A DNA stretch of 64,000 nucleotides from NCBI RefSeq assembly GCF_025457605.1, contig NZ_JAMZFY010000001.1:310001-374000 (forward strand), given 5' to 3'. The DNA comes from Haloarcula laminariae. GTDB lineage: Archaea; Halobacteriota; Halobacteria; Halobacteriales; Haloarculaceae. Shown here piece after piece: positions 15,292-34,470 of the stretch. The position numbers and the translations under genes were made by a program. Below the pieces are notes generated by a model. It ran no database searches. It was not told where the DNA came from and saw only the letters and a list, made by a program, of their open reading frames with translations. The stretch's first letter is position 1. Each line of letters begins with the position of its first letter.

Positions 15292-16401
15292 TCAGTCGTC
15301 CCCTGTCTCTGAGCTGTCTCCGGTGCGGGTCCGGCTCGTTCCCCTCGGCGGGTCGTAGCGGTACCACCGGTCTCCAGCTAACACGAGGTATATGTCCCGC
15401 GTAGTGTCTTCGATGACCCGGTTTTCCGTGTCGATAGCGATGTCCACCAGCCCCTCGAGCGAGTGGACGTCGACCGTCGACGGGGCCTCGCTCGGCTCGG
15501 GGACCCTCCCGGTCGTTATCCAGTCGTCGAACTCCTCCCTGTCCGCCCGATAGGCCACCAACTCGCGCTCGTGGTCGTCGATACTGAGTTGTCCCCGCCG
15601 CCGTGCGACGACGAGCCCGACCGCGCCGCCGCCACAAAGCAGGGCCAGCAACGGCACACCGACGGTTCTCGGCCACCCGTACTCGGCTGTGGCCGTCACT
15701 CGCTCGCTCCGGTTGTCCGACTCGGTAACCGGTCCGGGATCGTCGACGCGGTAGACGCTGCCGTCCGGCTGAATCCCCAGCCGATAGCTTCGGGTCACGT
15801 CGACCGGCCGCCCGTTTCGTGTCCCCGACAGCTCCGTCCTGGCCACGACGACCGTCTGTAGCTCCCCGGGCGTCCCACCGAACTCCGCGTCGATTCGCTC
15901 CGCCTCCCCCGTAGCGGCACTGACGTTGACGGAGAACGGCACCGCTGTTTCCTCTCCCGGGGCCAGCGAAGCAGTGCGGTTGCCGAGGCTCCGCTCGACC
16001 GCCCAGTACACGTTCCCGTTGCCGTTCTCGGCCGACTCGACCGACCGCAACAGCAGCGAGACGGTCGTCTCGGCGCTGACGTTTCCTCCCCCGCTGGCGG
16101 TGTAGCCGTAGCTAAACGACCCGTTCAGCTCCGGAGTTATCGACCGGAAATACGTCGTACGGTTCCGTAGTACCGCCCCTTCCGGCAACGCTGTGGTCCC
16201 GTTTACCACGGTTGCCTGATGGCTGAACTGGCCGGTCGACTGCCACTCGCTGCGCTCGCGGGTCTCCGTCACCGTTCCCGGGTCCGCGTGGGTCACGTAG
16301 GTCAGATACCCACCCGACACCGCAAGCACCACGAGTATCCCCACGGCGAGAGCGTAGTTGTCCCCTATCGCTATCTGTAGTCGTCGAGTCCGCCCGTTCA
16401 T
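15292..16401 (-). CDS. DUF5305 membrane protein
   Basis: This 369-residue protein is read from ATG 16401. It has an N-terminal TM segment (about 16-36) and a long beta-rich extracellular domain (about 40-250) with many Thr/Ser and N-x-S/T sequons. A second TM helix near 264-282 and a cytosolic acidic tail follow. The layout and strand pattern match DUF5305, a haloarchaeal family usually found next to SipW-like signal peptidases. It lies 26 bases downstream of the signal peptidase gene on the same strand, so they form an operon. It may be a chaperone, anchor or assembly factor for exported SipW substrates; this is inference from neighbourhood. Confidence 0.78.
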   Translation of the reverse strand: MNGRTRRLQIAIGDNYALAVGILVVLAVSGGYLTYVTHADPGTVTETRERSEWQSTGQFSHQATVVNGTTALPEGAVLRNRTTYFRSITPELNGSFSYGYTASGGGNVSAETTVSLLLRSVESAENGNGNVYWAVERSLGNRTASLAPGEETAVPFSVNVSAATGEAERIDAEFGGTPGELQTVVVARTELSGTRNGRPVDVTRSYRLGIQPDGSVYRVDDPGPVTESDNRSERVTATAEYGWPRTVGVPLLALLCGGGAVGLVVARRRGQLSIDDHERELVAYRADREEFDDWITTGRVPEPSEAPSTVDVHSLEGLVDIAIDTENRVIEDTTRDIYLVLAGDRWYRYDPPRGTSRTRTGDSSETGDD

Positions 16402-16427
16402 ACTCTTGTCACCATTGTGTGTCCTCG

Positions 16428-17573
16428 TTATCTGAGCCACGTCCGCAGACGGTCGAACCGGGACGGTCCATCGCGGGTCCGTGTGCGGACCCGCCCGGAG
16501 TTCCCCACTGCTACGCCCACTGCATAAAACGAGCCCCCCAGCAGCGCGTCGATGACGACGACGGGGAGCCACGGGTGAATCAGATACAGTGACCGGATGG
16601 TCGACTGCGGGAGGACCAGCAGATAGCGGTGCTCGACGACGTGGTGCTGGTAGTACCCCGTCTCCGGTGGGGCAGACAGCGTCAACGTCCCGTTGACCGA
16701 CGAGCGGGGCCCGACCGCCGCCTCGCGCGGCTCGACATCGACCCCGTCGCTGACCGGCTCGACGTACCGAACGACCGGGACGAACCCGCCGTTGGCGGTC
16801 GTGTACGGTACCGACTCGTTGGTCCCCTGCTCGATGACGCGCGGACCCGGCGAGTCGGTCTCGGCGCTGACGATGTCGAAGGTCTGTGGCCCCGCGGGGA
16901 CCGTCATCGCGGCCGTCGCGGATAGGACGATAGCCGCGCTGAAGACTACGACGACCAGGTGGAGTGATACCCCCGTATCCCGCTCGGTCTCCCGCGTGCG
17001 CCCGCGCTCGTCGTCCAGATACAGGTCGAGGAGGTAGCCGGCCACGGAGAGCGAGAGCAGGAGGTACGCGACACCTTGGGTACCAAGCAGCGAGCGCGTG
17101 CCAAAGAGCCCGGCCAACTGGCGCTGGACCGACCCGAACGCGTCCTGGGACGCGGTGACGGCGGCACCGACACCCGGAATCGTCACCACCGCCCCACCGG
17201 GTTGCCAGGCGACAGCGACGACCTGTGCCTCACTGACCGGCGGCTCGCCGCCGTCCTGGTCGGTGAAGGGGTTTGCGTCGCCTCTCGTCACGTACCCTCG
17301 TTCGGTCTCCTCGACGACACGGTGGGTCGTGAGCCCGCCGCCCTGTATCTCCTCGGACCGGAAGACGACGACGTCGCCCTCCTCTACGGGGCCGGCGATC
17401 TCCGCCGGAATCGCGACGAACCCCTCGCCGGTCTCGATGGTCGGCTCCATACTTCCCGAGGTGACAAACCCGAGAAGCACCGGCTGGCCGAGTACCTGCC
17501 CCAGCACCATCGAGACGAGGAAAACGACTAGCGCTGCCTCCCCCAGTAGGGTCCCCACCCTGCGCAGTCCCAT
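16428..17573 (-). CDS. SipW-like signal peptidase I
   Basis: This 381-residue S26B signal peptidase has an N-terminal TM helix and the catalytic Ser box FVTSGSMEPTIETGEG (about residues 37-52). EGDVVVF and the His box GGGLTTHRVVE, which replaces the bacterial Lys, come next, followed by RGDANPFTD. This is the ER/archaeal Ser-His type. Unusually, a second part of about 200 residues with three further TM helices and a Ser/Thr-rich beta domain follows. It cleaves signals of exported proteins; neighbouring DUF1102 genes are the likely substrates. The ATG at 17573 is preferred to the GTG one codon upstream. A TATA-like TTATATG lies at 17599-17605. Confidence 0.88.
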   Translation of the reverse strand: MGLRRVGTLLGEAALVVFLVSMVLGQVLGQPVLLGFVTSGSMEPTIETGEGFVAIPAEIAGPVEEGDVVVFRSEEIQGGGLTTHRVVEETERGYVTRGDANPFTDQDGGEPPVSEAQVVAVAWQPGGAVVTIPGVGAAVTASQDAFGSVQRQLAGLFGTRSLLGTQGVAYLLLSLSVAGYLLDLYLDDERGRTRETERDTGVSLHLVVVVFSAAIVLSATAAMTVPAGPQTFDIVSAETDSPGPRVIEQGTNESVPYTTANGGFVPVVRYVEPVSDGVDVEPREAAVGPRSSVNGTLTLSAPPETGYYQHHVVEHRYLLVLPQSTIRSLYLIHPWLPVVVIDALLGGSFYAVGVAVGNSGRVRTRTRDGPSRFDRLRTWLR

Positions 17574-17644
17574 CACTGTAGCCTCATTTTCCCTGACATA
17601 TAACCGTTTGTGTGGAGGAACTCCCTACTTGCCGGTTCGAGTGG

Positions 17645-18565
17645 CTATGGCGGACCGAGCCACTCAGACTCTACGACGACCAGCACGTACGACGCGATGA
17701 ACCCGAGCGCGTAGCCAAGCAAGTGGGTATACAGATTCAGGACCCGACCGCCGACCACGGGATCGACCGGGAACGTCGCCAGCGGGAGCATCAGAAAGAG
17801 GCCAAGCCCCACGACGGCAAGCTCGAAGTGGCCCGCGCGGTCGGCGGCCGTCCGCAGCCGCTCACGCCAGTCCCCCCGCTCGCCGGTCGCTGACAGCGCG
17901 TACAGCGCCAGCACGAGCGCGAGCGCGGCCAGCAGTCCGACCAGCGTCGCCGTGATGACGTGGCCGACCGCGACGGTCCGGCCCCGATACGGGACGGTCA
18001 CGCCGTAGGTCGCCACTGCCCCGAGCGTCAGCAGCGTTATCAGCGTCAGCCCGACGAAAAAGAGCAGCGGCGCGGTCGTCCGCCGGCGCCCGATATCGAA
18101 CTGACGCTCGGCGTGGGTCGCCAGCGCCAGGGGCAGATAGCCATACAGGGCGAGCAACACGCCCGAGAACCCGGCGCTGCCGCCGGTGCGGACGATAGCC
18201 AGGTTCAGATACGACAACAGGGGCGGGCAGGCGACCAGTAGCGAGACGAACGCCACGCGAAACCGCCGGCGCTCCCCGTTGGCCACACTCAGCAGGTAGG
18301 CGACGGGGACCACGAGCGCGTACCCCGCCAGATTCACCGCCAGGTGTCCCGGACCGACGTGGACGAACGCTGAGACCGTCGCCGTGTAGAGCGTCGGGTC
18401 CGCGTACTCGAAGACGAGCGACCGGCGGACCGACAGCGGCAGCATCGCGGCCGCCAGCAACGCGGCCGGGACCGCGAGCACGAGCAGCAGGTCCGCCGCC
18501 GTCGCCGGCGTGCGAAGCGACTCGAACGGGCCCTCCGTCGCGTCCGTTCCCCCGACGCGGTCCAT
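17645..18565 (-). CDS. Rhomboid-family intramembrane serine protease
   Basis: This 306-residue polytopic membrane protein has six to seven TM helices. Rhomboid signatures are present: HVGPGHLAVNLAGYA (the HxxxxHxxxN motif of TM2), the catalytic Ser in GFSGVLLAL (GxSG of TM4) and the His in THLLGYALGF (TM6). Rhomboids cut TM segments of substrate proteins within the membrane. It lies between the signal peptidase and a secreted, C-terminally anchored protein on the same strand, so it may process surface proteins of this locus; that link is inference. Confidence 0.85.
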   Translation of the reverse strand: MDRVGGTDATEGPFESLRTPATAADLLLVLAVPAALLAAAMLPLSVRRSLVFEYADPTLYTATVSAFVHVGPGHLAVNLAGYALVVPVAYLLSVANGERRRFRVAFVSLLVACPPLLSYLNLAIVRTGGSAGFSGVLLALYGYLPLALATHAERQFDIGRRRTTAPLLFFVGLTLITLLTLGAVATYGVTVPYRGRTVAVGHVITATLVGLLAALALVLALYALSATGERGDWRERLRTAADRAGHFELAVVGLGLFLMLPLATFPVDPVVGGRVLNLYTHLLGYALGFIASYVLVVVESEWLGPP

Positions 18566-18610
18566 TCCTACGGTATCGACGGGCGCCCGCCGGTTTCATA
18601 GTTCCGGCAG

Positions 18611-19402
18611 TTACGCGAACAACCGGTAGCCGACGAGCGCCGAGAGCAACACGGCGAGCCCGCCGCCGATACCGAGCAGCGACCCGAGGCCGAGGCCGCC
18701 GAGCTCGACCGGTCCGCCGTCCGCGTCGCCGCCCGCCGTGTCCGGCGGCGACGATTCAGTCGGCGACTCGGTCGACGGCTCCGACGGCGTCGGGGGCGGC
18801 GTTTCGGCCTCGTCGGGCGTCGGTGGCGTCCCCACTGGGGTCCGGACCGTCTCGATCTCCTCGGTCGGGGTGGGTGTCGAGGTCGGCGGAACGTAGCCGT
18901 CGTCGTCATCGTCCTCGGCCACTTCGGCGTTCACGCTGAAGGTCTCGGCCTGCTCGACGTCGTGCTCCCCGCGGGTGTCAACTAGTAGCCCGACGGTGAC
19001 GGTCTCGCTCGGCCCGAGGGTGACGCTGTTTGCCTCCCCTTCGAGCGAGTCACTGCTGTCGTCGCCGCGGTAGAAGCGCACGTCCTCGGCGTCGTCGGTC
19101 AACCAGACTATCGCTTCCTGGTCGCCGGTGTAGGTCATCGTGAAGACGCGGGGTATCGGGGTGGCGGCGTTCGAGCTGATGCCCTCGCCTTCCGTGGCTG
19201 GATTCGCGCCCGTCAGGAGTAGTTCGAGTTCATCGTCCTCACCGAGAACTGCGTAGTTTCCGTTCGGGCCGTCGGCGGGCCGGAGCTCGATGTCCCCGCT
19301 CACGTCGTCGGTGCCCGTCAGGTCAAAGGGCGCCGCACCGGTCGGGACGAGCACCGCGGCTGTGGCGAGGACGGCGACGAGGAGGAGCCCTTTGCGGGAC
19401 AT
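18611..19402 (-). CDS. Secreted, C-terminally anchored DUF1102-like protein
   Basis: This 263-residue protein has a signal peptide (about 1-24) and a beta-sandwich-like domain (about 30-165). A long Thr/Pro/Glu/Ser-rich low-complexity stalk (about 170-230) and a C-terminal TM helix follow. The folded part (with VTLGPSETVTVGLLVDTRG) resembles the DUF1102/TasA-like exported proteins encoded just upstream. The stalk-anchor plan suits a cell-surface tether for a fibre. A perfect inverted repeat of the GTTTGAA motif lies 52-70 bases before its start. Confidence 0.66.
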   Translation of the reverse strand: MSRKGLLLVAVLATAAVLVPTGAAPFDLTGTDDVSGDIELRPADGPNGNYAVLGEDDELELLLTGANPATEGEGISSNAATPIPRVFTMTYTGDQEAIVWLTDDAEDVRFYRGDDSSDSLEGEANSVTLGPSETVTVGLLVDTRGEHDVEQAETFSVNAEVAEDDDDDGYVPPTSTPTPTEEIETVRTPVGTPPTPDEAETPPPTPSEPSTESPTESSPPDTAGGDADGGPVELGGLGLGSLLGIGGGLAVLLSALVGYRLFA

Positions 19403-19453
19403 ACAAACCGAATCTGACCCTACATATTCATGCCACGCAATTAGTATTTGAGT

Positions 19454-19472
19454 GTTTGAATCCGGTTCAAAC
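19454..19472. promoter_or_regulatory. Perfect inverted repeat GTTTGAA-N5-TTCAAAC
   Basis: GTTTGAA (19454-19460) and TTCAAAC (19466-19472) form a perfect palindrome 52 bases upstream of the ATG at 19402 on the minus strand, just upstream of where its TATA should be. The same half site occurs at 21025, 21090 and 21186. Likely an operator or activator site shared by the exported-protein genes. Confidence 0.55.
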
Positions 19473-19575
19473 GGTATTGTAACAGTCTCTCTCTCGGAAA
19501 ATCCCGGCGCGGGGTCAAGACCGCCGGGGTGAGTGGTCTGTGGGGTCAGGACAGACTGGCTAGGGGTTCAGGTGT

Positions 19576-19633
19576 CGCCCTCTCGGGCGAAGCCCACCGG
19601 CGGAATCGAACCGCCGAGATGCCGGCGTGGGCT
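19576..19633 (-). ncRNA. Candidate structured RNA with tRNA T-arm-like minihelix
   Basis: On the minus strand AGCCCAC (19633-19627) pairs with GTGGGCT (19597-19591). Inside lies GGCGG-TTCGATT-CCGCC (19615-19599), a canonical T-arm with 5-base-pair stem and 7-base loop. Eleven bases replace the D and anticodon arms. A second hairpin (CGCCC/GGGCG, 19576-19589) follows. This looks like an acceptor/T-arm minihelix and not a functional tRNA. It may be a tRNA relic (an old integration site) or a small RNA. Confidence 0.35.
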
Positions 19634-19635
19634 GA

Positions 19636-19654
19636 GAGCGTGAATTTTCAGCTC
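19636..19654 (-). terminator. Hairpin just after the DUF1102 gene
   Basis: Six bases beyond the stop of the gene ending at 19660, GAGC-G-TGAA and TTCA-GCTC form an eight-base-pair stem with one bulge and a two-base gap. Place and shape fit a terminator or 3'-end processing structure. Confidence 0.4.
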
Positions 19655-19659
19655 CCGTA

Positions 19660-20223
19660 CTAGCTTCCAGTCACGATAGCATTGATCACGAGCGAAATGT
19701 CGTACTCATCTTCCCGTACTGGGACATCTTGGGTGTCTATTTCCAACCCACAATTCAGCTGTTCCCCGACTTCAATAGCTTCGGATGGACTATCTTCAGT
19801 GAGGAGATCTCCGGTATCAACGTCATATATCGTGACTTCCGGCAATCCGCTTGTTGTCTCTTGCGTGCTGTACACCTCGACCGGCTGCGTCCCTTGGTTG
19901 GTGATTGAGAACAACCCACTCTCATCGTGAGCAGCGTCGTCTCCGAACTGATAGACCGAATCCGTTCCGAGACCTTCCGGGTCTGTTCCACCGTAGTCAT
20001 CATCGTCAGGACCCGGAATATCGAATCCAACCGTGTTGCCGTCTTCATATGACCGCCGGCCCTCTCCTCGTTCTTCTAGTTTGAGGAACGCTTCGTCATC
20101 GGCGGCGACCGAAACTGAGACCGACCGGCCAGCGCTAACGCTCGTGAACGCACCCGTGCCTATGGCAAACACACTGCCCGAGGCCAGACTTCCAAAGCCG
20201 GCAATCAGGGTGCGTCGATTCAT
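19660..20223 (-). CDS. DUF1102/TasA-like exported protein A
   Basis: This 187-residue protein starts MNRRTLIAGFGSL with a Gly/Ala/Ser-rich signal ending in GTGAFTSVSA. The mature chain then opens with SVSVSVAADDEAFLKL. This is the camelysin/TasA-like layout: a signal with Gly-Ala-Phe-Thr-Ser, then a beta strand and an acidic turn, cleaved in bacteria by SipW-type peptidases. The rest is an acidic beta-sandwich with no Cys pair. It is one of two tandem paralogues (the next gene starts six bases upstream). A SipW-like peptidase is 2 kb away. It probably is exported and may polymerise; polymerisation is inference. Confidence 0.75.
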   Translation of the reverse strand: MNRRTLIAGFGSLASGSVFAIGTGAFTSVSAGRSVSVSVAADDEAFLKLEERGEGRRSYEDGNTVGFDIPGPDDDDYGGTDPEGLGTDSVYQFGDDAAHDESGLFSITNQGTQPVEVYSTQETTSGLPEVTIYDVDTGDLLTEDSPSEAIEVGEQLNCGLEIDTQDVPVREDEYDISLVINAIVTGS

Positions 20224-20228
20224 TGAGA

Positions 20229-20906
20229 TTACCCCTGATTAATTGAGGAGAAGTCTTCGTAATCGGCGACAGCGTTGATGGTTATTGGGGTGCTGATAGA
20301 GGCGGTATCGTCCGTTCCGCCGTTGATGTACAGACCAAAGGCGAAGCTCTCACCGGGCTCAAGGATGTAACTCTGGTAATTGTAACCCTTCAGATCGTCT
20401 TCGGGGAAATTGCCGTTGACCTGATTACCTCGGCCGCTCAGACTGATTTCATCACTAATCTGGGCTGCATTATTCGGTTCCCCAGTCCCGTAATTGCTAT
20501 CCGTTTCCTCCGGGGTCGTGGGACGATCAGACGCTTGCGGGTCGACGAAGAGATCCCCATCACTCACGCTGTTCGCGTACACGAAGACATTCTGCGTCCC
20601 CTGATTTTCGACATCGAAGAGATCGAGTATTCGGGTAATCCCGTCTTGATTGACACCGCTGGCGTCTTCATTGTAATTATTGGAACTGCTCAACTGAATA
20701 TTGACCTGACCGCCACCCGTTTGCACGTAGTCGGAATTTTCTCCACCTTCACTGGTATTCAACGCCAAGAACGCGTTGGCGTCACTAGCCGTGTTAACTG
20801 ACACTGTCCGGTTCGCGCTCACACTCGTGAACGCGCCGGTACCCATTGCAGCGGCCGAGCCGGCCGCGAGCGATCCTGCGCCGATGAGGAACTTGCGTCG
20901 GTTCAT
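20229..20906 (-). CDS. DUF1102/TasA-like exported protein B
   Basis: This 225-residue paralogue of the downstream neighbour starts MNRRKFLIGAGSL. Its signal ends in GTGAFTSVSA, exactly as in protein A, and is followed by RTVSVNTASDANAFLAL. The mature part is Asn/Ser/Gly-rich with beta-strand periodicity and ends in ITINAVADY. It is the first gene of a two-gene transcript. A GTTTGAACGG motif lies about 120 bases upstream. Tandem major and minor subunits beside a SipW-like peptidase is the gene plan of TasA/AbpA-type fibre loci. Assignment is by pattern. Confidence 0.75.
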   Translation of the reverse strand: MNRRKFLIGAGSLAAGSAAAMGTGAFTSVSANRTVSVNTASDANAFLALNTSEGGENSDYVQTGGGQVNIQLSSSNNYNEDASGVNQDGITRILDLFDVENQGTQNVFVYANSVSDGDLFVDPQASDRPTTPEETDSNYGTGEPNNAAQISDEISLSGRGNQVNGNFPEDDLKGYNYQSYILEPGESFAFGLYINGGTDDTASISTPITINAVADYEDFSSINQG

Positions 20907-21263
20907 AGTTGTCTCAGCGCACGCCTTTCCACCCCCACTTCCATCCGGGTGGATCGGACGCGCTACCAGAGGCCAGACACCCTACCCGCATTGTAGTATT
21001 CTCTTTGATACATCTGAATAGTACGTTTGAACGGCAGTATGCGGTCTCTGCGTTTCCCACTGCTGGCGGGCCCAGCCGGTATAGCGTCCTTTGAACGGGC
21101 ACTCGATAGCCACTGCGTGGTCTACCATGGTGATGAAATACGGGCAGAAGGGACGGTCTACGCCCCAAAAATACCGTTCTACGACGTTCAAACGGCCTTT
21201 GGCGGGTGTTCACAGTCCGAGATACAAAGCACAATACTACCTACATGAACGGTTGTAAGACTG
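20907..21263. promoter_or_regulatory. Divergent regulatory region with three GTTTGAAC-type sites
   Basis: No gene is supported between the divergent starts at 20906 (minus) and 21264 (plus). It contains GTTTGAACGG (21025-21034), CTTTGAACGG (21089-21098) and GTTCAAACGG (21186-21195). All carry the octamer also found as a palindrome at 19454-19472. A/T-rich TATA candidates lie near 20995-21020. The region probably controls the exported-protein operon and the small plus-strand gene. Confidence 0.5.
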
Positions 21264-21413
21264 ATGTCCAGCCACGACTCCCCCGGCACGACTCCGATCG
21301 AAAAGCATCTCGAGACCGCCCTCGAAATGGCGGACGACGACAAGGCGAAGTACCACCTCCGTGAGGCGTATCAAAAATGCGTCACGCTGAGCGAGCTATC
21401 GGACCACTCGTAA
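21264..21413 (+). CDS. Small conserved-looking acidic protein
   Basis: This 49-residue ORF, with ATG at 21264 and TAA at 21411-21413, encodes a soluble helical protein. It has the segment IEKHLETALEMADDDKAKY and a second helix ending CVTLSEL. Codon use (strong third-position G/C) matches the host, which supports it. It lies 69 bases after a GTTCAAACGG motif and ahead of the DUF7344 regulator. The function is not recognised. Confidence 0.6.
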   Translation: MSSHDSPGTTPIEKHLETALEMADDDKAKYHLREAYQKCVTLSELSDHS

Positions 21414-21505
21414 CGGAACTCCGACCAGACATATCAACATCACTGCCGGCATTTTTCAACTCCCACTGCTCTCAAATTCCATCTCCGGACTGCCCCACGA
21501 AAAAA

Positions 21506-21511
21506 TTTATA
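21506..21511 (+). promoter_or_regulatory. TATA box of the DUF7344 gene
   Basis: TTTATA preceded by an A-run (BRE-like position) lies 58 bases upstream of the ATG at 21569. This predicts transcription starting near 21535 and a short leader. It is the best match to a haloarchaeal core promoter in this gap. Confidence 0.55.
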
Positions 21512-21568
21512 CCATCTCTCACATTACATGTCAAGTGACCGGAGTTGGGATCCGGGGTGGGATACGGT

Positions 21569-22177
21569 ATGAGCAAAGCCATATCGGGGACGGGGGAGAC
21601 CCCAGAGTCGGCCGGAGTACAGAGTGGTCAGGACAGAAGCGAGCTCTCGCGTGACGACGCGTTCGAGATGCTGAGCAACCGCCGGCGGCGGTTCATCCTG
21701 CACTACCTGCAGGACGAGGACGCGGCCGCGACGCTCTCGGATCTCGCCGAGCAGGTCGCCGCCTGGGAAAACGAGACGGACATCGCGAGCATCTCCGCCA
21801 GCGAGCGAAAGACTGTCTACACGTCCCTCCAGCAGTTTCACCTGCCCAAGATGGACGAGACGGGCATCGTCGAGTTCGACCAGCGGGCCGGCGAGGTTCA
21901 CATTACCGACGCCGCTCAGGACCTCGACATCTATCTGGAGGTCGTCGATGAGTACGACATCCCGTGGAGCTTCTACTACATCGGCTTTAGCGCCATCGGA
22001 ACGATTCTCGTGACGCTGTCGTGGCTCGATATCGGGCCCTTCGCCGCGATACCGTACATCGGATGGACGGTGTTCCTGCTCGCGGCGCTGCTGGTTTCCT
22101 CGATGTCTCACTACGTCCTCACGCGCCGGAACCGACTGGGAACAGGCGAATCCCCGCCGGAGGTGAGCGATGCGTAG
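21569..22177 (+). CDS. DUF7344 winged-helix regulator with two TM helices
   Basis: This 202-residue protein has an N-terminal DUF7344-type winged helix (about residues 30-120). It begins AFEMLSNRRRRFILHYLQ, continues with TLSDLAEQVAAWE and KTVYTSLQQFHLPKMDETGIV, and has wing GEVHITDAA. Two TM helices (about 140-158 and 164-183) and a basic tail follow. DUF7344 is a haloarchaeal DNA-binding domain; here it is tethered to the membrane, so it may sense the envelope. It overlaps the following exported-protein gene by eight bases and is the best candidate regulator of this locus. Confidence 0.8.
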   Translation: MSKAISGTGETPESAGVQSGQDRSELSRDDAFEMLSNRRRRFILHYLQDEDAAATLSDLAEQVAAWENETDIASISASERKTVYTSLQQFHLPKMDETGIVEFDQRAGEVHITDAAQDLDIYLEVVDEYDIPWSFYYIGFSAIGTILVTLSWLDIGPFAAIPYIGWTVFLLAALLVSSMSHYVLTRRNRLGTGESPPEVSDA

Positions 22178-22637
22178 CGGTGCCTTCCTCCTGTGTGCGC
22201 TCGTGGTCACCGTCGGCATCGCCGTCGGTAGCGGCGGGTTCACGTCAGCACAGGCCGACCGGGGTGTGACTGTCGAGGTCGTCGGCGACGGAGACGCCTA
22301 CATGGCGCTCGATTACCCCAACGAGACGGTCGAGCGCGACGGCGTTGTCAACGAGACAATGTCGCTCCAGTTCGTCACTGTCACGAACCAGTTCCCCGAG
22401 AACGTCACGCTCACTGTCAACTACACCGTCCAAGGGGAGCCGGGCCTCTCGACCAGCGACGACAACGAGACGACGCTCAACGTCGGCGAGTCGACCGACG
22501 TGTCCGCCCCGGTGACGTGTCCCTCCGCGGGCGACTACGACGTCTCGGTTGAGTTCGGTGCCACGGCCGATGGGCCCGGAATCTACGCCGAGACGAGTGA
22601 CGACCGGACCGTCGAGTACGAGGTCAGCTGCGAGTAA
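22170..22637 (+). CDS. Secreted DUF1102-like protein
   Basis: This 155-residue protein has an N-terminal signal (about 1-27, ending SGGFTSAQADRG, the same Gly-Phe-Thr-Ser pattern as the other exported proteins). It then has a beta-rich domain with five N-x-S/T sequons and two Cys (in APVTCPSAGDY and the terminal SCE) that could form a disulfide. Overlap with the DUF7344 gene shows co-transcription. It is probably a minor subunit or surface partner in the same system; role inferred. Confidence 0.7.
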   Translation: MRSGAFLLCALVVTVGIAVGSGGFTSAQADRGVTVEVVGDGDAYMALDYPNETVERDGVVNETMSLQFVTVTNQFPENVTLTVNYTVQGEPGLSTSDDNETTLNVGESTDVSAPVTCPSAGDYDVSVEFGATADGPGIYAETSDDRTVEYEVSCE

Positions 22638-29592: not shown

Positions 29593-31656
29593 TTATCGCC
29601 GTCGCGCCAGCAGCGCCAGCACGGCCGCCAGCGCGGCGACTGGAGCGGTAAAGCCCGGTCCGCTCCCCCCGCTCGTTCCCGCCGGTCCATCGGTCGGTGT
29701 GGTGACGGTCACTGTCACCGGGGTCGCCGACCCCGCGCCGACCCGCCGCTCCCCGGCCGTCGGCAGCTCGATATCGGCCGACAGCTCGGTCGTCGCCCCC
29801 GGCGCCAGGGCGACCGCCCGCTCGGCGACCGGCTCGCCGTCCCGCGTGAACGTGACGGTGCCGTTCGCGGGGACCGCCGCGTCGTTTCGCACCGTCGCCG
29901 TGACCCGGACGCTCTCGCCCGCCCGCACCCGTTCGCTGTCCACGCGCACGCCGCTGACCGTCGGCTCGGCCGGCTCCTCGACGACGACCGTGGTTGTCTC
30001 CCCGCCCACGCCCAGCGTGTACTCGCCGGGCCGGTCGAACGTGTGCGAGAGCGGGACCGTCCGTTCGCCCCCCGCGTCCAACTGGCCCGACGCCGACGCG
30101 ACGGCGCGCCCGTCGACGGTCAGCGTGGCGTTGTACGCGCCCGCCTCGCCGCCGGTGTTCTCGACGACCGCGTCGACCGTCAGCCGCTCGCCGGTCGCCA
30201 GCCGGACCGGCGTCGACAGGGTGTCGTTCCGGTAGGGACCGCTCGCCCGGTAGCCGTCCGCCCCCGACGGGAGCCCGTAGCGCATCTGTGCCGGCACCGT
30301 TCCGAACAGCCGCGAGTGGGTCCGCTGGTTCCACATCGAGAGCGGCTCGCTGGTCTCGGATAGCTCGGCGGCCGTCGCCCGGGGCTCGGCCCCGCCCGCG
30401 GCCTCGACGGCCTCGAGGAACGCCGTCTGTGTCACCGGTTGCTGACCCTCGTTCAGTTCGCGCATCACCCGCTGGAGCGTCGCGGACTGGTTCGTCCCCT
30501 CCCGCAGCGCCAGGTCGAGCCGTCCCGCCGCCAGCGCGCCCTTGACGTAGTTGGCGTTGGCCGCCCACGTCGACGGCGACGAGAGCACCACGTCGTCGTA
30601 GGTCGAGCGCTCGCCGCGGGCGAGTTCGCGCTCGAACGCCTCGAAGTCGATACGCCCCTGTTCGAGCGTCAGCCCGGCGGCGTAGTACTGGGCGGTCGCC
30701 TCGGTGAGCCACCGCGTCTCGCTCGTCGTCCGGAACGCCTGCCGCGTGTGGACGTACTCGTGGAGCCAGACGTTGGCCGGCTCGCCCAGCCGCTCGAAGT
30801 CCCGAACCCAGAACTCGGCGTCGCCCGTGGCCAGCCCCCGCACCCCCCACTCGACCCGGTCGGTCGGCGCCGCGAACCCGACGACCGTCTCGTCGCGGTT
30901 GCCGACCTGCAGGGACCGCGAGGCGTTGGTCAGGGAGTCCAGGATGGACTCGGGGGACTCGCTCAGCTCCGCCGCCTCTGGGACGACCAGCCGGAACGTC
31001 TGTCCGTTCTGTGTCCGCTCGACGGTCCGAACGTCGCCGAGGAACACGATGCGGTCGCCCGTCGCCCCGGGCCCGTCCGTTCGCGCCCGGCGGTCCACGC
31101 CCGGCTGGGACCCGGAGTAACTGTACCGGCTGGACGTCCGGAACTGCCGGATAAGCGCCCACTCGCCGGTGTCGGCAAAGAGGTACTGGCCGCCGGCCGC
31201 CTCGGGCCCGGTCTTGCTGGTCGTCTCGTTGGGATTGTATCGGAGCGTGATACTCGGTCGCGCCGTCGACTCGTCCCAGTCGTAGGTCGTGTCGTTGACC
31301 CGGTCGAACCCGTCGGTGTCGGTGACGGTCCCGTCGTCGACGAGGAACGTCCGCAGCGACCCGACCCGGTCGGGGAGCTCGTAGGTAATCGTCACCCGCA
31401 CCGACCCCGGCCGGTCGGGCGTCAGCGCGTAGCTGCCGGTCCGGACGATGTCGCCGTCGACCCCCGTCGCGTTGGCCGCCGCAAGCGAGCCACCCGTCGT
31501 CGGCGCGGCCGATTCGGACAGGGCTGTCTGCCCGGCCGGCTCGGCGGCCGACGCGGTCGAGACGGCCGCCCCGCCGGCGACGGCGCTCCCGGCCATCGAT
31601 ACGACGAGAAGCAGTGTCCACGCTCCGGCGACCCACCCGCGCTCGGTCCTGCGCAT
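29593..31656 (-). CDS. Secreted M1/M61-like peptidase with CARDB domain and PGF-CTERM anchor
   Basis: This 687-residue protein is read from ATG 31656. A signal peptide (about 1-33) and a long beta-rich N-terminal region precede a gluzincin peptidase core. The zinc site is NVWLHEYVHTRQAF (HExxH) with the third ligand in WLTEATAQYYA. Helical domain, CARDB-like adhesion repeats (about 490-640), a Thr/Gly/Ser linker and the sorting signal GPGFTAPVAALAAVLALLAR (PGF-CTERM) follow. Archaeosortase should cleave that signal and attach the protein to the membrane lipid. It probably is a cell-surface aminopeptidase. Divergent from the second mutS. Confidence 0.82.
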   Translation of the reverse strand: MRRTERGWVAGAWTLLLVVSMAGSAVAGGAAVSTASAAEPAGQTALSESAAPTTGGSLAAANATGVDGDIVRTGSYALTPDRPGSVRVTITYELPDRVGSLRTFLVDDGTVTDTDGFDRVNDTTYDWDESTARPSITLRYNPNETTSKTGPEAAGGQYLFADTGEWALIRQFRTSSRYSYSGSQPGVDRRARTDGPGATGDRIVFLGDVRTVERTQNGQTFRLVVPEAAELSESPESILDSLTNASRSLQVGNRDETVVGFAAPTDRVEWGVRGLATGDAEFWVRDFERLGEPANVWLHEYVHTRQAFRTTSETRWLTEATAQYYAAGLTLEQGRIDFEAFERELARGERSTYDDVVLSSPSTWAANANYVKGALAAGRLDLALREGTNQSATLQRVMRELNEGQQPVTQTAFLEAVEAAGGAEPRATAAELSETSEPLSMWNQRTHSRLFGTVPAQMRYGLPSGADGYRASGPYRNDTLSTPVRLATGERLTVDAVVENTGGEAGAYNATLTVDGRAVASASGQLDAGGERTVPLSHTFDRPGEYTLGVGGETTTVVVEEPAEPTVSGVRVDSERVRAGESVRVTATVRNDAAVPANGTVTFTRDGEPVAERAVALAPGATTELSADIELPTAGERRVGAGSATPVTVTVTTPTDGPAGTSGGSGPGFTAPVAALAAVLALLARRR

Positions 31657-31779
31657 TACGCACGGCTTACCGGTCGCGCGTAATATACCTGATTGCCGAG
31701 ATCCGCTGGCGACAGCCGTCCGGTCTGCGCCCGTCCGGCACCCGCAATCCTTACGCCGGGCAGACTCACACGGACGGGT

Positions 31780-34470
31780 ATGACAGAGGCGACGGGCATC
31801 GTCGGTGAGTTCCTCTCGCTCAAGGAGGAGACCGACGCCGATATTCTCGCGATGCAGTGTGGTGATTTCTACGAGTTCTTCGCCGACGACGCCGAGCTGG
31901 TGGCCGACGAGCTGGACCTGAAGGTGAGCCAGAAGTCCTCCCACGGCTCGAAGTACCCGATGGCCGGCGTCCCCGTGGACGACCTGACTCCCTACGTCTC
32001 CGCGCTGGTCGAGCGGGGCTACCGCGTCGCGGTGGCCGACCAGCACGAGACGGCCGACGGCCACGCCCGGGAGATAACGCGCGTGGTGACGCCGGGCACC
32101 CACCTGGCGACCGGCGACGACAGCGCCCAGCACCTCGCGGCGGTGGTCCGCCACGACGGCGGCCGGGGCGCCGACGGGGACACCTACGGGCTCGCGGTCG
32201 CCGACGTGACGACGGGCCGCTTTCAGGTCACCCAGCTCGACGACGCCGACGCGGGCGCGGCCCTGACCGAGCTGTACACGTTCTCGCCGGCGGAGGTGTT
32301 GCCGGGCCCCGACCTGCGAAACGACGACGGCTTCCTGGCGGCCTTAGACGAGCGCTCCGAGGCCGCCGTCTCCCTGCACGCCACGGAGTCGTTCGAGCCG
32401 GGCCGGGCGCGCCACCGGGTGCGCGAGCAGTTCGGCGCCGAGACGCTCGCCAGTGTGGGCATCGACGGCTCGGACGCGGCCATCGCGGCCGCGGGCGCCG
32501 TCCTCTCGTACGTCGAGGAGACCGGCGTCGGGACGCTGGCCGCGGTGACTCGCCTGCGGGCCTACGGCGCCCGCGACCACGTCTCGCTGGACGCGACCAC
32601 GCAGCGCAACCTCGAACTCACGGAGACGATGCAGGGCGACTCGGCGGGGTCGCTGTTCGACACGGTGGACCACACCGTCACCGCCGCCGGGGGGCGGTTG
32701 CTGAAACGGTGGCTCCAGCGCCCCCGGCGCGAGCGGGGCGAGCTCGTCCGCCGGCAAGCCGCCGTCGCGGCGCTGACCCGGGAAGCGATGGCCCGCGAGG
32801 CCATCCGGGAGACGCTCGCCGACGGCTACGACCTCGAACGGCTCGCGGCCCGGGCGACCTCGGGCAGCGCCGACGCCCGGGACCTCCGGGCGATAGAGGA
32901 CACGCTCGGCCTGCTCGCCGAGGTGGCCGACGCCGTCGCCGAGACCGAGCGCCTGGCCGACTCGCCCCTCTCGGACGTGCTCGCGGGCCCCGACCGCGCG
33001 GCCGCCGCCGACCTCGCCGCCGAGCTCGACGCCGCCCTGGTCGCGGAGCCGCCCGGAACCGTCACGCAGGGCGGGCTCTTCGTCCGGGGGTACGACGACG
33101 ACCTCGACGCGCTCATCGAGGAACACGAGGCGGCCCTGGAGTGGCTTGAGACCCTGCCCGACCGCGAGAAGGAACGGACCGGCATCACCCACCTCTCGGT
33201 CGACCGCAACAAGACGGACGGCTACTACATCCAGGTCGGCAAGAGCGAGACGGACCAGGTCCCCGACGCCTACGAGGAGATAAAGACGCTCAAGAACTCC
33301 AAGCGCTACACCATCCCCGAGCTCGACGAGCGCGAGCGGGACGTGCTTCGCCTGGAGGAACGGCGCCACGAGATGGAGGCGGAGCTGTTCGAGCAGTTAC
33401 GCGGGCGGGTCGCCGACCGCGCGGCGCTGTTGCAGGACGTGGGCCGGGCGCTGGCCGAGGTCGACACGCTGGCGTCGCTCGCGGTCCACGCCGTCGAGAA
33501 CGACTGGACGCGGCCCGAGCTGACCGACGACGGGCGCCTCGACATCGAGGCCGGCCGCCACCCCGTCGTCGAGCAGACCACCGAGTTCGTCCCGAACGAC
33601 CTCGACATGCGGCCCGGCGAGCGGGACTTCCTCGTCGTCACCGGGCCGAACATGAGCGGGAAGTCCACCTACATGCGCCAGGCCGCGCTCGTCACGCTGC
33701 TCGCCCAGACCGGAAGTTTCGTCCCCGCGCGAGCGGCGACGGTCGGGCTGGTCGACGGCATCTACACCCGCGTGGGCGCGCTGGACGAACTCGCCCAGGG
33801 CCGGTCGACGTTCATGGTCGAGATGCAGGAGCTCTCGAACATCCTGCATTCGGCGACCGAGGACTCCCTGATAATTCTGGACGAGGTCGGCCGGGGCACC
33901 GCGACGTTCGACGGTATCTCCATCGCCTGGGCGGCCACGGAGTACATCGCGACCACCGTCCGGGCGAAGACGCTCTTTGCGACACACTACCACGAGCTCA
34001 CCTCCCTGGGCGAGTCGCTCCCGACCGTCCAGAACGTCCACGTCGCGGCCGACGAGACCGACGGCGACGTGACGTTCATGCGCACCGTCAGGGACGGGCC
34101 GACGAACCGCTCCTACGGCGTCCACGTCGCCGACCTGGCGGGCGTCCCCGAGCCGGTCGTCGACCGCTCCCGGGAGGTGCTCGACCGGCTGCGGAAGGAC
34201 AAGGCCATCGAGGTCAGGGGCGGCGAGAGCGACGACGGGGGCACGACCCAGGCCGTCTTCGACCTCTCCTCGGGGCAGTTCGATGAAGGCGCCCGACAAG
34301 TCGACGGGAGCTCCGACGCGGCGACTACGGACGAGACCGTTACCGAGACAATCGATGCGGAGACCGAAGCCGTCCTCGAAGAGCTACGGGACATCGACGT
34401 TAACGAGACGCCCCCTGTCGAGTTGCTGTCGAAAGTCCAGCAGTGGCAGACCGAACTTAACGAAGAGTGA
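31780..34470 (+). CDS. mutS: DNA mismatch repair protein MutS (second copy)
   Basis: This 896-residue MutS1-type protein is read from ATG 31780. The mismatch-binding motif CGDFYEFF is near residue 30, closer to the N-terminus than in the first copy. The ATPase domain has [29 protein letters not shown] and [15 protein letters not shown]-terminal region rich in Glu/Asp/Thr follows, then a final helix pair ending PPVELLSKVQQWQTEL. It differs clearly from the mutS at 12473, so the two are old paralogues (MutS1a/b-like) and not a recent duplication. Confidence 0.93.
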   Translation: MTEATGIVGEFLSLKEETDADILAMQCGDFYEFFADDAELVADELDLKVSQKSSHGSKYPMAGVPVDDLTPYVSALVERGYRVAVADQHETADGHAREITRVVTPGTHLATGDDSAQHLAAVVRHDGGRGADGDTYGLAVADVTTGRFQVTQLDDADAGAALTELYTFSPAEVLPGPDLRNDDGFLAALDERSEAAVSLHATESFEPGRARHRVREQFGAETLASVGIDGSDAAIAAAGAVLSYVEETGVGTLAAVTRLRAYGARDHVSLDATTQRNLELTETMQGDSAGSLFDTVDHTVTAAGGRLLKRWLQRPRRERGELVRRQAAVAALTREAMAREAIRETLADGYDLERLAARATSGSADARDLRAIEDTLGLLAEVADAVAETERLADSPLSDVLAGPDRAAAADLAAELDAALVAEPPGTVTQGGLFVRGYDDDLDALIEEHEAALEWLETLPDREKERTGITHLSVDRNKTDGYYIQVGKSETDQVPDAYEEIKTLKNSKRYTIPELDERERDVLRLEERRHEMEAELFEQLRGRVADRAALLQDVGRALAEVDTLASLAVHAVENDWTRPELTDDGRLDIEAGRHPVVEQTTEFVPNDLDMRPGERDFLVVTGPNMSGKSTYMRQAALVTLLAQTGSFVPARAATVGLVDGIYTRVGALDELAQGRSTFMVEMQELSNILHSATEDSLIILDEVGRGTATFDGISIAWAATEYIATTVRAKTLFATHYHELTSLGESLPTVQNVHVAADETDGDVTFMRTVRDGPTNRSYGVHVADLAGVPEPVVDRSREVLDRLRKDKAIEVRGGESDDGGTTQAVFDLSSGQFDEGARQVDGSSDAATTDETVTETIDAETEAVLEELRDIDVNETPPVELLSKVQQWQTELNEE

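Follow-up and report, generated by a model that had tools for sequence, protein, structure and literature searches.

A probable Tafi-type fibre locus in Haloarcula laminariae and a tRNA-like element associated with haloarchaeal fibre-subunit genes

We analyzed a cluster of eight genes in a 64,000-nucleotide stretch of the Haloarcula laminariae genome (contig NZ_JAMZFY010000001.1, positions 310,001 to 374,000; hereafter the window), together with its counterparts in a survey sample of 292 Halobacteria genomes from 77 genera. The locus encodes, with a probability that we put at roughly 85%, a Tafi-type (Tat-fimbria) surface fibre, which would be built by the seven-step scheme proposed below. Haloarchaeal Tat-fimbriae ("tafi") were described in 2025 (Galeva et al., iScience 28:111793, as cited in PMC12687288), and judging from its sequences the cluster is a divergent paralogue of the Tat-fimbria (taf) loci with the same component set. 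An original prediction for this DNA had named eight genes here, all of which exist at the places and on the strands that it gave them, and its feature list had missed a structured RNA of 41 nt. This RNA is most simply a tRNA-like t-element, and the association of such elements with fibre-subunit genes is strong new content. The parts of the locus are as follows.

15292..16407, minus strand: DUF5305 membrane protein with a first, N-terminal transmembrane (TM) segment, an exported beta-rich domain, a second TM segment and a cytoplasmic tail (PF17231, E 5e-50)
16428..17576, minus strand: extended SipW-type signal peptidase with an archaeal Ser-His-Asp part, more TM helices and an exported immunoglobulin (Ig)-like domain (TIGR02228)
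17645..18565, minus strand: predicted rhomboid-type intramembrane protease, with conserved GFSG (G132, S134, G135) and H281
18611..19402, minus strand: TafF-like anchored subunit with a subunit domain, a Thr/Pro/Ser-rich stalk, a VELGG motif and a C-terminal TM segment (TafF NF052523, E 2e-14, below cut-off)
19592..19632, minus strand: t-element-like RNA (model R1, 61.5 bits)
19660..20223, minus strand: second Tafi-type subunit, Tat signal MNRRTL...GTGAFTSVSA (TafE NF052522, E 1.6e-11, below cut-off)
20229..20906, minus strand: first Tafi-type subunit and probable major pilin, Tat signal MNRRKFL...GTGAFTSVSA (9P0A match)
21545..22177, plus strand: DUF7344 winged-helix-like protein with two C-terminal hydrophobic or TM segments, a candidate membrane-tethered regulator (PF24035, E 6e-32)
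22170..22637, plus strand: TafC-like minor subunit, Sec-type signal ending GGFTSAQADRG (TafC NF052521, E 6e-10, below cut-off)

Transcription on the minus strand runs through 20229-20906, 19660-20223, 18611-19402, the rhomboid gene, SipW and the DUF5305 gene, with 5 bp between the first two and a gap of about 257 bp before 18611-19402; the divergent plus-strand set consists of the DUF7344 gene, whose likely true start is the in-frame ATG at 21569, and 22170-22637, which overlaps it by 8 bp. What is read directly from sequences and models comprises the parts, their homology and order, the signals of the Tat and SipW types, and the structured RNA and the genes with which it is associated across genomes. 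The predicted identities of the DUF5305 protein and of the DUF7344 protein with its membrane segments were borne out, as were the four exported proteins (named below by first coordinate), three of which have a signal ending in G-A/G-F-T-S; neither 18611 nor 22170 has an obvious Tat signal. The family label DUF1102 was dropped, there being a single sub-threshold match (18611, E 0.03) and no literature mention found.

By its sequence the first subunit, 20229, is homologous to the demonstrated Tafi pilin. Among solved chains the subunit-family profile A2 had one strong match, PDB 9P0A (E 4.7e-30), titled "Structure of Natrinema sp. J7-2 Tafi pilus", which was also matched by the single sequences of 20229 (E 5.8e-14) and 19660 (E 4e-7). 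Structure prediction of 20229, for which the original prediction had asked, gave an AlphaFold2 model of the mature protein whose best aligned structure was again 9P0A (VIA Z 8.8, 127 residues), the only fold match to exceed the common range of Z; below it came AbpA (7UEG, Z 7.0, within the range of common arrangements, root-mean-square deviation 3.6 over 123 residues), the Sulfolobus thread (7PNB, Z 6.8) and then FimA. TasA was not among these fold matches, an absence that proves nothing, and none of the four exported proteins matched a Peptidase_M73 or TasA model at E up to 1. Of the TasA/AbpA-like fibre that had been proposed, the general kind is supported, since 20229 matches 9P0A and then, more weakly, AbpA and the Sulfolobus thread, and membership in the TasA family is not. 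Product 19660 is better conserved across genera (cross-genus phmmer down to 2e-84), and among 145 E-type relatives 135 have a twin-arginine motif and 102 match the signal end G-x-F-[TSDE]. The profiles of the F and E families align over the mature domain (hhalign 99.6%), so that 18611 is a subunit domain with a stalk and C-terminal helix added, and the 22170 profile matches the subunit-family profile at 99.2%, for which the signal region is partly responsible.

Conservation of the neighbourhood beyond the source genome, across Halobacteria, is extensive. Among 100 SipW loci (80 named and 20 others, with some overlap and several fetched twice from two collections), DUF5305 was found in 95, F-like genes in 93, E-like in 91, C-like in 89, DUF7344 in 84 and a rhomboid gene in 56, the prevailing order being C-DUF7344 (divergent) and E-E-F-rhomboid-SipW-DUF5305. 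This order is kept across at least a dozen named genera, DUF5305 is present in 92 of 116 genomes, and the arrangement is far from chance. The DUF5305 protein is a probable assembly or anchoring partner of SipW.

For equivalog membership we used the curated NCBIfam cut-offs for TafA, TafC, TafE and TafF. All matches to the four exported proteins of the window were below them, the best being TafE at 65.2 against a cut-off of 155 bits, and membership in the Haloarcula Taf equivalogs was rejected; because every Taf model falls short, the cluster of DUF5305, SipW and subunit genes is taken as a paralogous variant and not as the same genes as Haloarcula Taf. Within the genus, TafA and TafF each score above cut-off in 12 of 32 genomes, and the source genome has no Taf above cut-off, the window genes being its only Taf-like genes. 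True taf loci of the genus (L104, L106) contain SipW, TafC, DUF7344, TafA, TafE, TafF and DUF5305, and in one genome, G055, a true taf locus (L104) coexists with a SipW locus of the window type (L105). Among named relatives, the locus of Haloarcula rara SHR3 (L124) is nearest to that of the window. Rhomboid genes or fragments also stand beside true taf loci of the genus (G051:C69:8-577, G106:C1:2700754-2701017, G055:C1:225980-226756, G083:C1:598924-599697), which suggests an ancestral rhomboid decaying in some Haloarcula.

The RNA element, GCCCACGCCGGCATCTCGGCGGTTCGATTCCGCCGGTGGGC, begins 27 nt past the stop codon of 19660 and can fold into a 6-bp acceptor-type stem (GCCCAC/GTGGGC) and a 6-bp T-arm closed by the tRNA-like loop TTCGATT, leaving a GG-containing bulge in the position of the D-loop. 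Its core occurs once in the source genome; ARAGORN found no tRNA in the window, and the best Rfam match to the element was far below the gathering threshold. With at most one mismatch, the pattern GGCGGTTCGANTCCGCCGGTGGG was found in 98 of the 292 genomes and 39 of the 77 genera, while the reversed pattern gave zero matches in every genome listed. We take this near-exact count as the prevalence of the fibre element, and not the raw 140 of 292 genomes matched by structural model R1, since the latter includes the t-elements of 5S rRNA. A census of upstream genes covered 54 elements in loci chosen by the element alone: 37 upstream genes fit a pattern of Tat-exported, SipW-type subunits, two more did so by inspection (L231, L286), one was of another kind (L274), and 14 were not judged, 13 lying at a locus edge and one at a masked place (L235, the same as L117, where the upstream DNA reads N). 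Thus, of the 40 upstream genes that could be checked, 39 code for Tat-exported fibre subunits of the SipW type, either Tafi or camelysin/TasA-like (the latter matching PF12389 and TIGR04088), and the start codon of the next Tat signal mostly lies 8-36 nt past the element.

Only elements retrieved with the fibre-type sequence pattern went into building model R1. Two base pairs changed on both sides among its 27 founding sequences, and 8 of 12 pairs did so among 93 model matches, an alignment that follows the model and contains 5S elements as well, giving 54 cells against 15.3 in shuffles and at most 2 in each slid control. The model recognises elements near 5S rRNA as well: in 10 of 12 places checked, its match lies 2-3 nt before 5S rRNA. 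In Haloferax a t-element before 5S rRNA is cut by tRNase Z, making the 5S 5′ end (PMC4326828, PMC3296008). Because R1 recovers elements at the place of that t-element, the simplest view of the fibre element is that it is itself a t-element, which shares the structural model and differs in its position between surface-fibre subunit genes, and by analogy its cleavage by tRNase Z would be the expected outcome. On balance we favour, with real reservation, the reading that t-elements punctuate haloarchaeal SipW-dependent fibre-subunit operons of both the Tafi and the camelysin/TasA-like kind, where tRNase Z would cut after each element, yielding separate subunit mRNAs with a new 5′ end about 20 nt before the next start. 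No description of a t-element beside pilin genes was found in the literature, though the search covered few subscription papers.

Two further observations concern these elements and arrays. In 40 of 63 cases, against 16.5 expected in shuffles, the element is followed within 6 nt by the start of another short GC hairpin (examples being the window, L109, L118, L227 and L230), possibly a terminator or processing aid. Tandem arrays of Tat-exported camelysin/TasA-like proteins (genomes G142, G161, G063, G097 and G240; loci L234, L247, L256, L265 and L280) in several cases have t-elements 1-2 kb apart, and some of their proteins have apparent von Willebrand A-like stretches; in G161 the arrays are present without any Tafi-type SipW match.

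The predicted rhomboid protease has a weak Pfam match (E 0.0024), yet its GxSG serine motif is kept in 52 of 52 relatives and the histidine of TM6 in 51 of 52, which upholds the assignment. Assignment as a rhombosortase is not supported, TIGR03902 scoring 17.9 against a cut-off of 84 bits (E 0.0023). Strong rhomboid matches, 50 of them taken from genomes with a known SipW coordinate, lie within 5 kb of SipW in 42 cases, and of the F-like proteins that have a C-terminal TM segment, 46 of 55 are encoded directly before a rhomboid. F-like proteins show a motif of the type E-[PL]-x-[GAI] before the helix in 43 of 54 cases where the locus has a rhomboid and in 1 of 12 where it has none (Fisher p 6e-6, a statistic that ignores relatedness). 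Among the 11 misses in rhomboid loci, several have near variants (VAEIGGF, SLGGF, EEAGGF) and others have no C-terminal helix. By its sequence, then, the E-P-x-G-F-like motif before the helix usually accompanies an adjacent rhomboid that is catalytically intact by its residues, and the rhomboid is a candidate for processing the 18611 product. The E-[PL]-x-G tail of 18611 may usefully be contrasted with another sequence of the window, the C terminus of frame 29593-31998 on the minus strand (start assigned mechanically), GPGFTAPVAALAAVLALLARRR, which resembles an ordinary PGF-CTERM archaeosortase signal. The rhomboid-anchor pairing is moderate as new content. The original prediction had held that the haloarchaeal version with its rhomboid and stalked anchor would be new, and this is not supported for the core system, given the Tat-fimbriae of 2025, the NCBIfam models TafA, TafC, TafE and TafF, and 9P0A; the rhomboid-stalk pairing, like the intergenic RNA element, appears to be undescribed in the literature searched.

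The SipW-like peptidase was correctly recognized, TIGR02228 matching above cut-off (59.7 bits) and the SipW model NF046067 below it (E 5e-11), and its catalytic Ser-His-Asp residues (SGSM, THR, GDAN) are all in place and do not vary across the alignment. Its extension had been called unusual, a description that we reject, with homologues of the extended SipW in 236 of the 292 genomes and 67 of the 77 genera, nearly all of the matches listed spanning the full ~380 aa, and the extension (more TM helices and an exported domain, residues ~225-340) kept in 18 of 18 aligned relatives. The whole structural model is poor (mean predicted local distance difference test, pLDDT, 46.8), so we discuss only the C-terminal, exported domain, which reaches about 65-83. 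This domain matches MSP/PapD-like Ig folds including the pilus chaperones Caf1M and FimC at Z 6.5-8.8, the level of common Ig arrangements, and from the model a chaperone built into SipW would at most be an attractive guess.

From these parts we infer how the fibre may be exported, cleaved, polymerised and regulated through mRNA cutting. The Tat pathway would export the two main subunits (step 1), and the extended SipW would cleave before A/G-F-T-S, releasing an N-terminal strand (step 2) through which, by analogy with related archaeal fibres, subunits may polymerise head to tail by donor-strand complementation (step 3). The TafF-like stalked protein would cap or anchor the fibre base, and the adjoining rhomboid may cut at or near the E-[PL]-x-G motif, which would release or re-anchor the protein (step 4). 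DUF5305 and the Ig-like domain of SipW would assist hand-over of subunits at the membrane (step 5), and the divergent DUF7344-TafC operon may sense and tune assembly (step 6). Finally, tRNase Z, perhaps with RNase P, would cut the t-element after 19660 in the mRNA, so that the subunit message, which would be in high demand, is parted from the message for the anchor and enzymes (step 7).

Several observations weigh against parts of this scheme. All four exported proteins score below the Taf cut-offs, the fold model is only moderate (pLDDT 73, predicted template-modelling score 0.71) with weak Foldseek E-values (5.6e-3), and it was predicted without a donor strand. The next gene in the window starts about 190 nt past the element against the usual ~20 nt, and just some 13 of the Tafi loci searched bear a t-element, which is therefore inessential and best seen as an optional addition to the Tafi system. 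Strict pairing of motif and rhomboid is contradicted by TafF of G084, which bears EPNGF in a genome without a detectable rhomboid. One alternative for the fibre is a TasA/camelysin-type biofilm matrix fibre, with subunits of the Peptidase_M73/TasA family forming matrix bundles. SipW-type peptidases and x-F-T-S signal ends are common to TasA systems, and haloarchaeal TasA/camelysin-like arrays carry the same RNA element, but those arrays do match the M73/TasA models while the window subunits do not, and among solved structures the Tafi pilus is nearest, so that this explanation is very improbable. Equally little credence goes to a set of adhesion proteins, secreted or membrane-anchored, that SipW and the rhomboid would mature but that would form no polymer. 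The predicted fibre of Haloarcula laminariae is indeed known here from genes and models alone, and two of the four exported proteins, 18611 and 22170, are without an obvious Tat signal, 18611 being membrane anchored; against this reading stand the homology to a pilin that polymerises and the repetition of subunit genes in most loci.

The 41-nt element could be a feature of the DNA and not a functional RNA, either an integration site derived from a tRNA or a spot where tandem subunit genes recombine. Its core is near-invariant across genera and tRNA 3′ ends are often integrase targets, as in a halovirus example (PMC8707807). This would not account for the orientation of the element, which always follows that of the flanking subunit genes (0 of 54 opposite), for the compensatory changes in both stems or for the fit of the same model before 5S rRNA, and ARAGORN's failure to find a tRNA in the window also counts against it; we regard it as unlikely. 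A more serious contender, though still the less favoured, is that the rhomboid is a general protease merely sharing the operon, with the E-P-x-G motif inherited without function. This could explain the motif of G084 and the 8 of 50 rhomboid homologues not near SipW, but less easily the 46 of 55 TM-bearing F proteins directly before a rhomboid or the motif's absence from 11 of 12 F-like proteins in rhomboid-less loci, and the sole motif-bearing exception, L155, comes from a genome (G023) with a rhomboid elsewhere (G023:C1:80146).

Compared with known systems, the locus most resembles the Tafi of Haloarcula and Natrinema sp. J7-2, with homologous Tat-exported subunits, GAFTS or GAFSS signal ends, and SipW, DUF5305, DUF7344, TafC- and TafF-like genes adjoining the subunits in both. 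It differs in its gene order, organized as one long operon with a divergent pair, and in a rhomboid between F and SipW, a single C-terminal TM segment in F and the t-element. The AbpA bundling pili of Pyrobaculum and the Sulfolobus thread are the next-best predicted-fold matches, but no sequence similarity was found and they belong to another lineage and gene context. Bacillus TasA/TapA/SipW likewise has a dedicated SipW-type peptidase and a Phe directly past the cleavage site, whereas the window has Tat signals, DUF5305, DUF7344 and a rhomboid. GlyGly-CTERM/rhombosortase systems also pair a rhomboid-family protease with a C-terminal motif, TM segment and basic tail, but in the window the motif is E-[PL]-x-G-F-like and there is one candidate substrate in the same operon, where rhombosortase has many.

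The conserved locus provides a map of parts for a newly recognised archaeal fibre and suggests testable roles for DUF5305, DUF7344, the SipW extension and the rhomboid. Punctuation of protein-coding operons by tRNA-like structures is known from mitochondria. If the proposed role of the t-element is true, tRNA-like punctuation would be a widespread archaeal way to tune the supply of fibre subunits, and would explain how one polycistronic transcript may yield very different amounts of pilin and assembly proteins.

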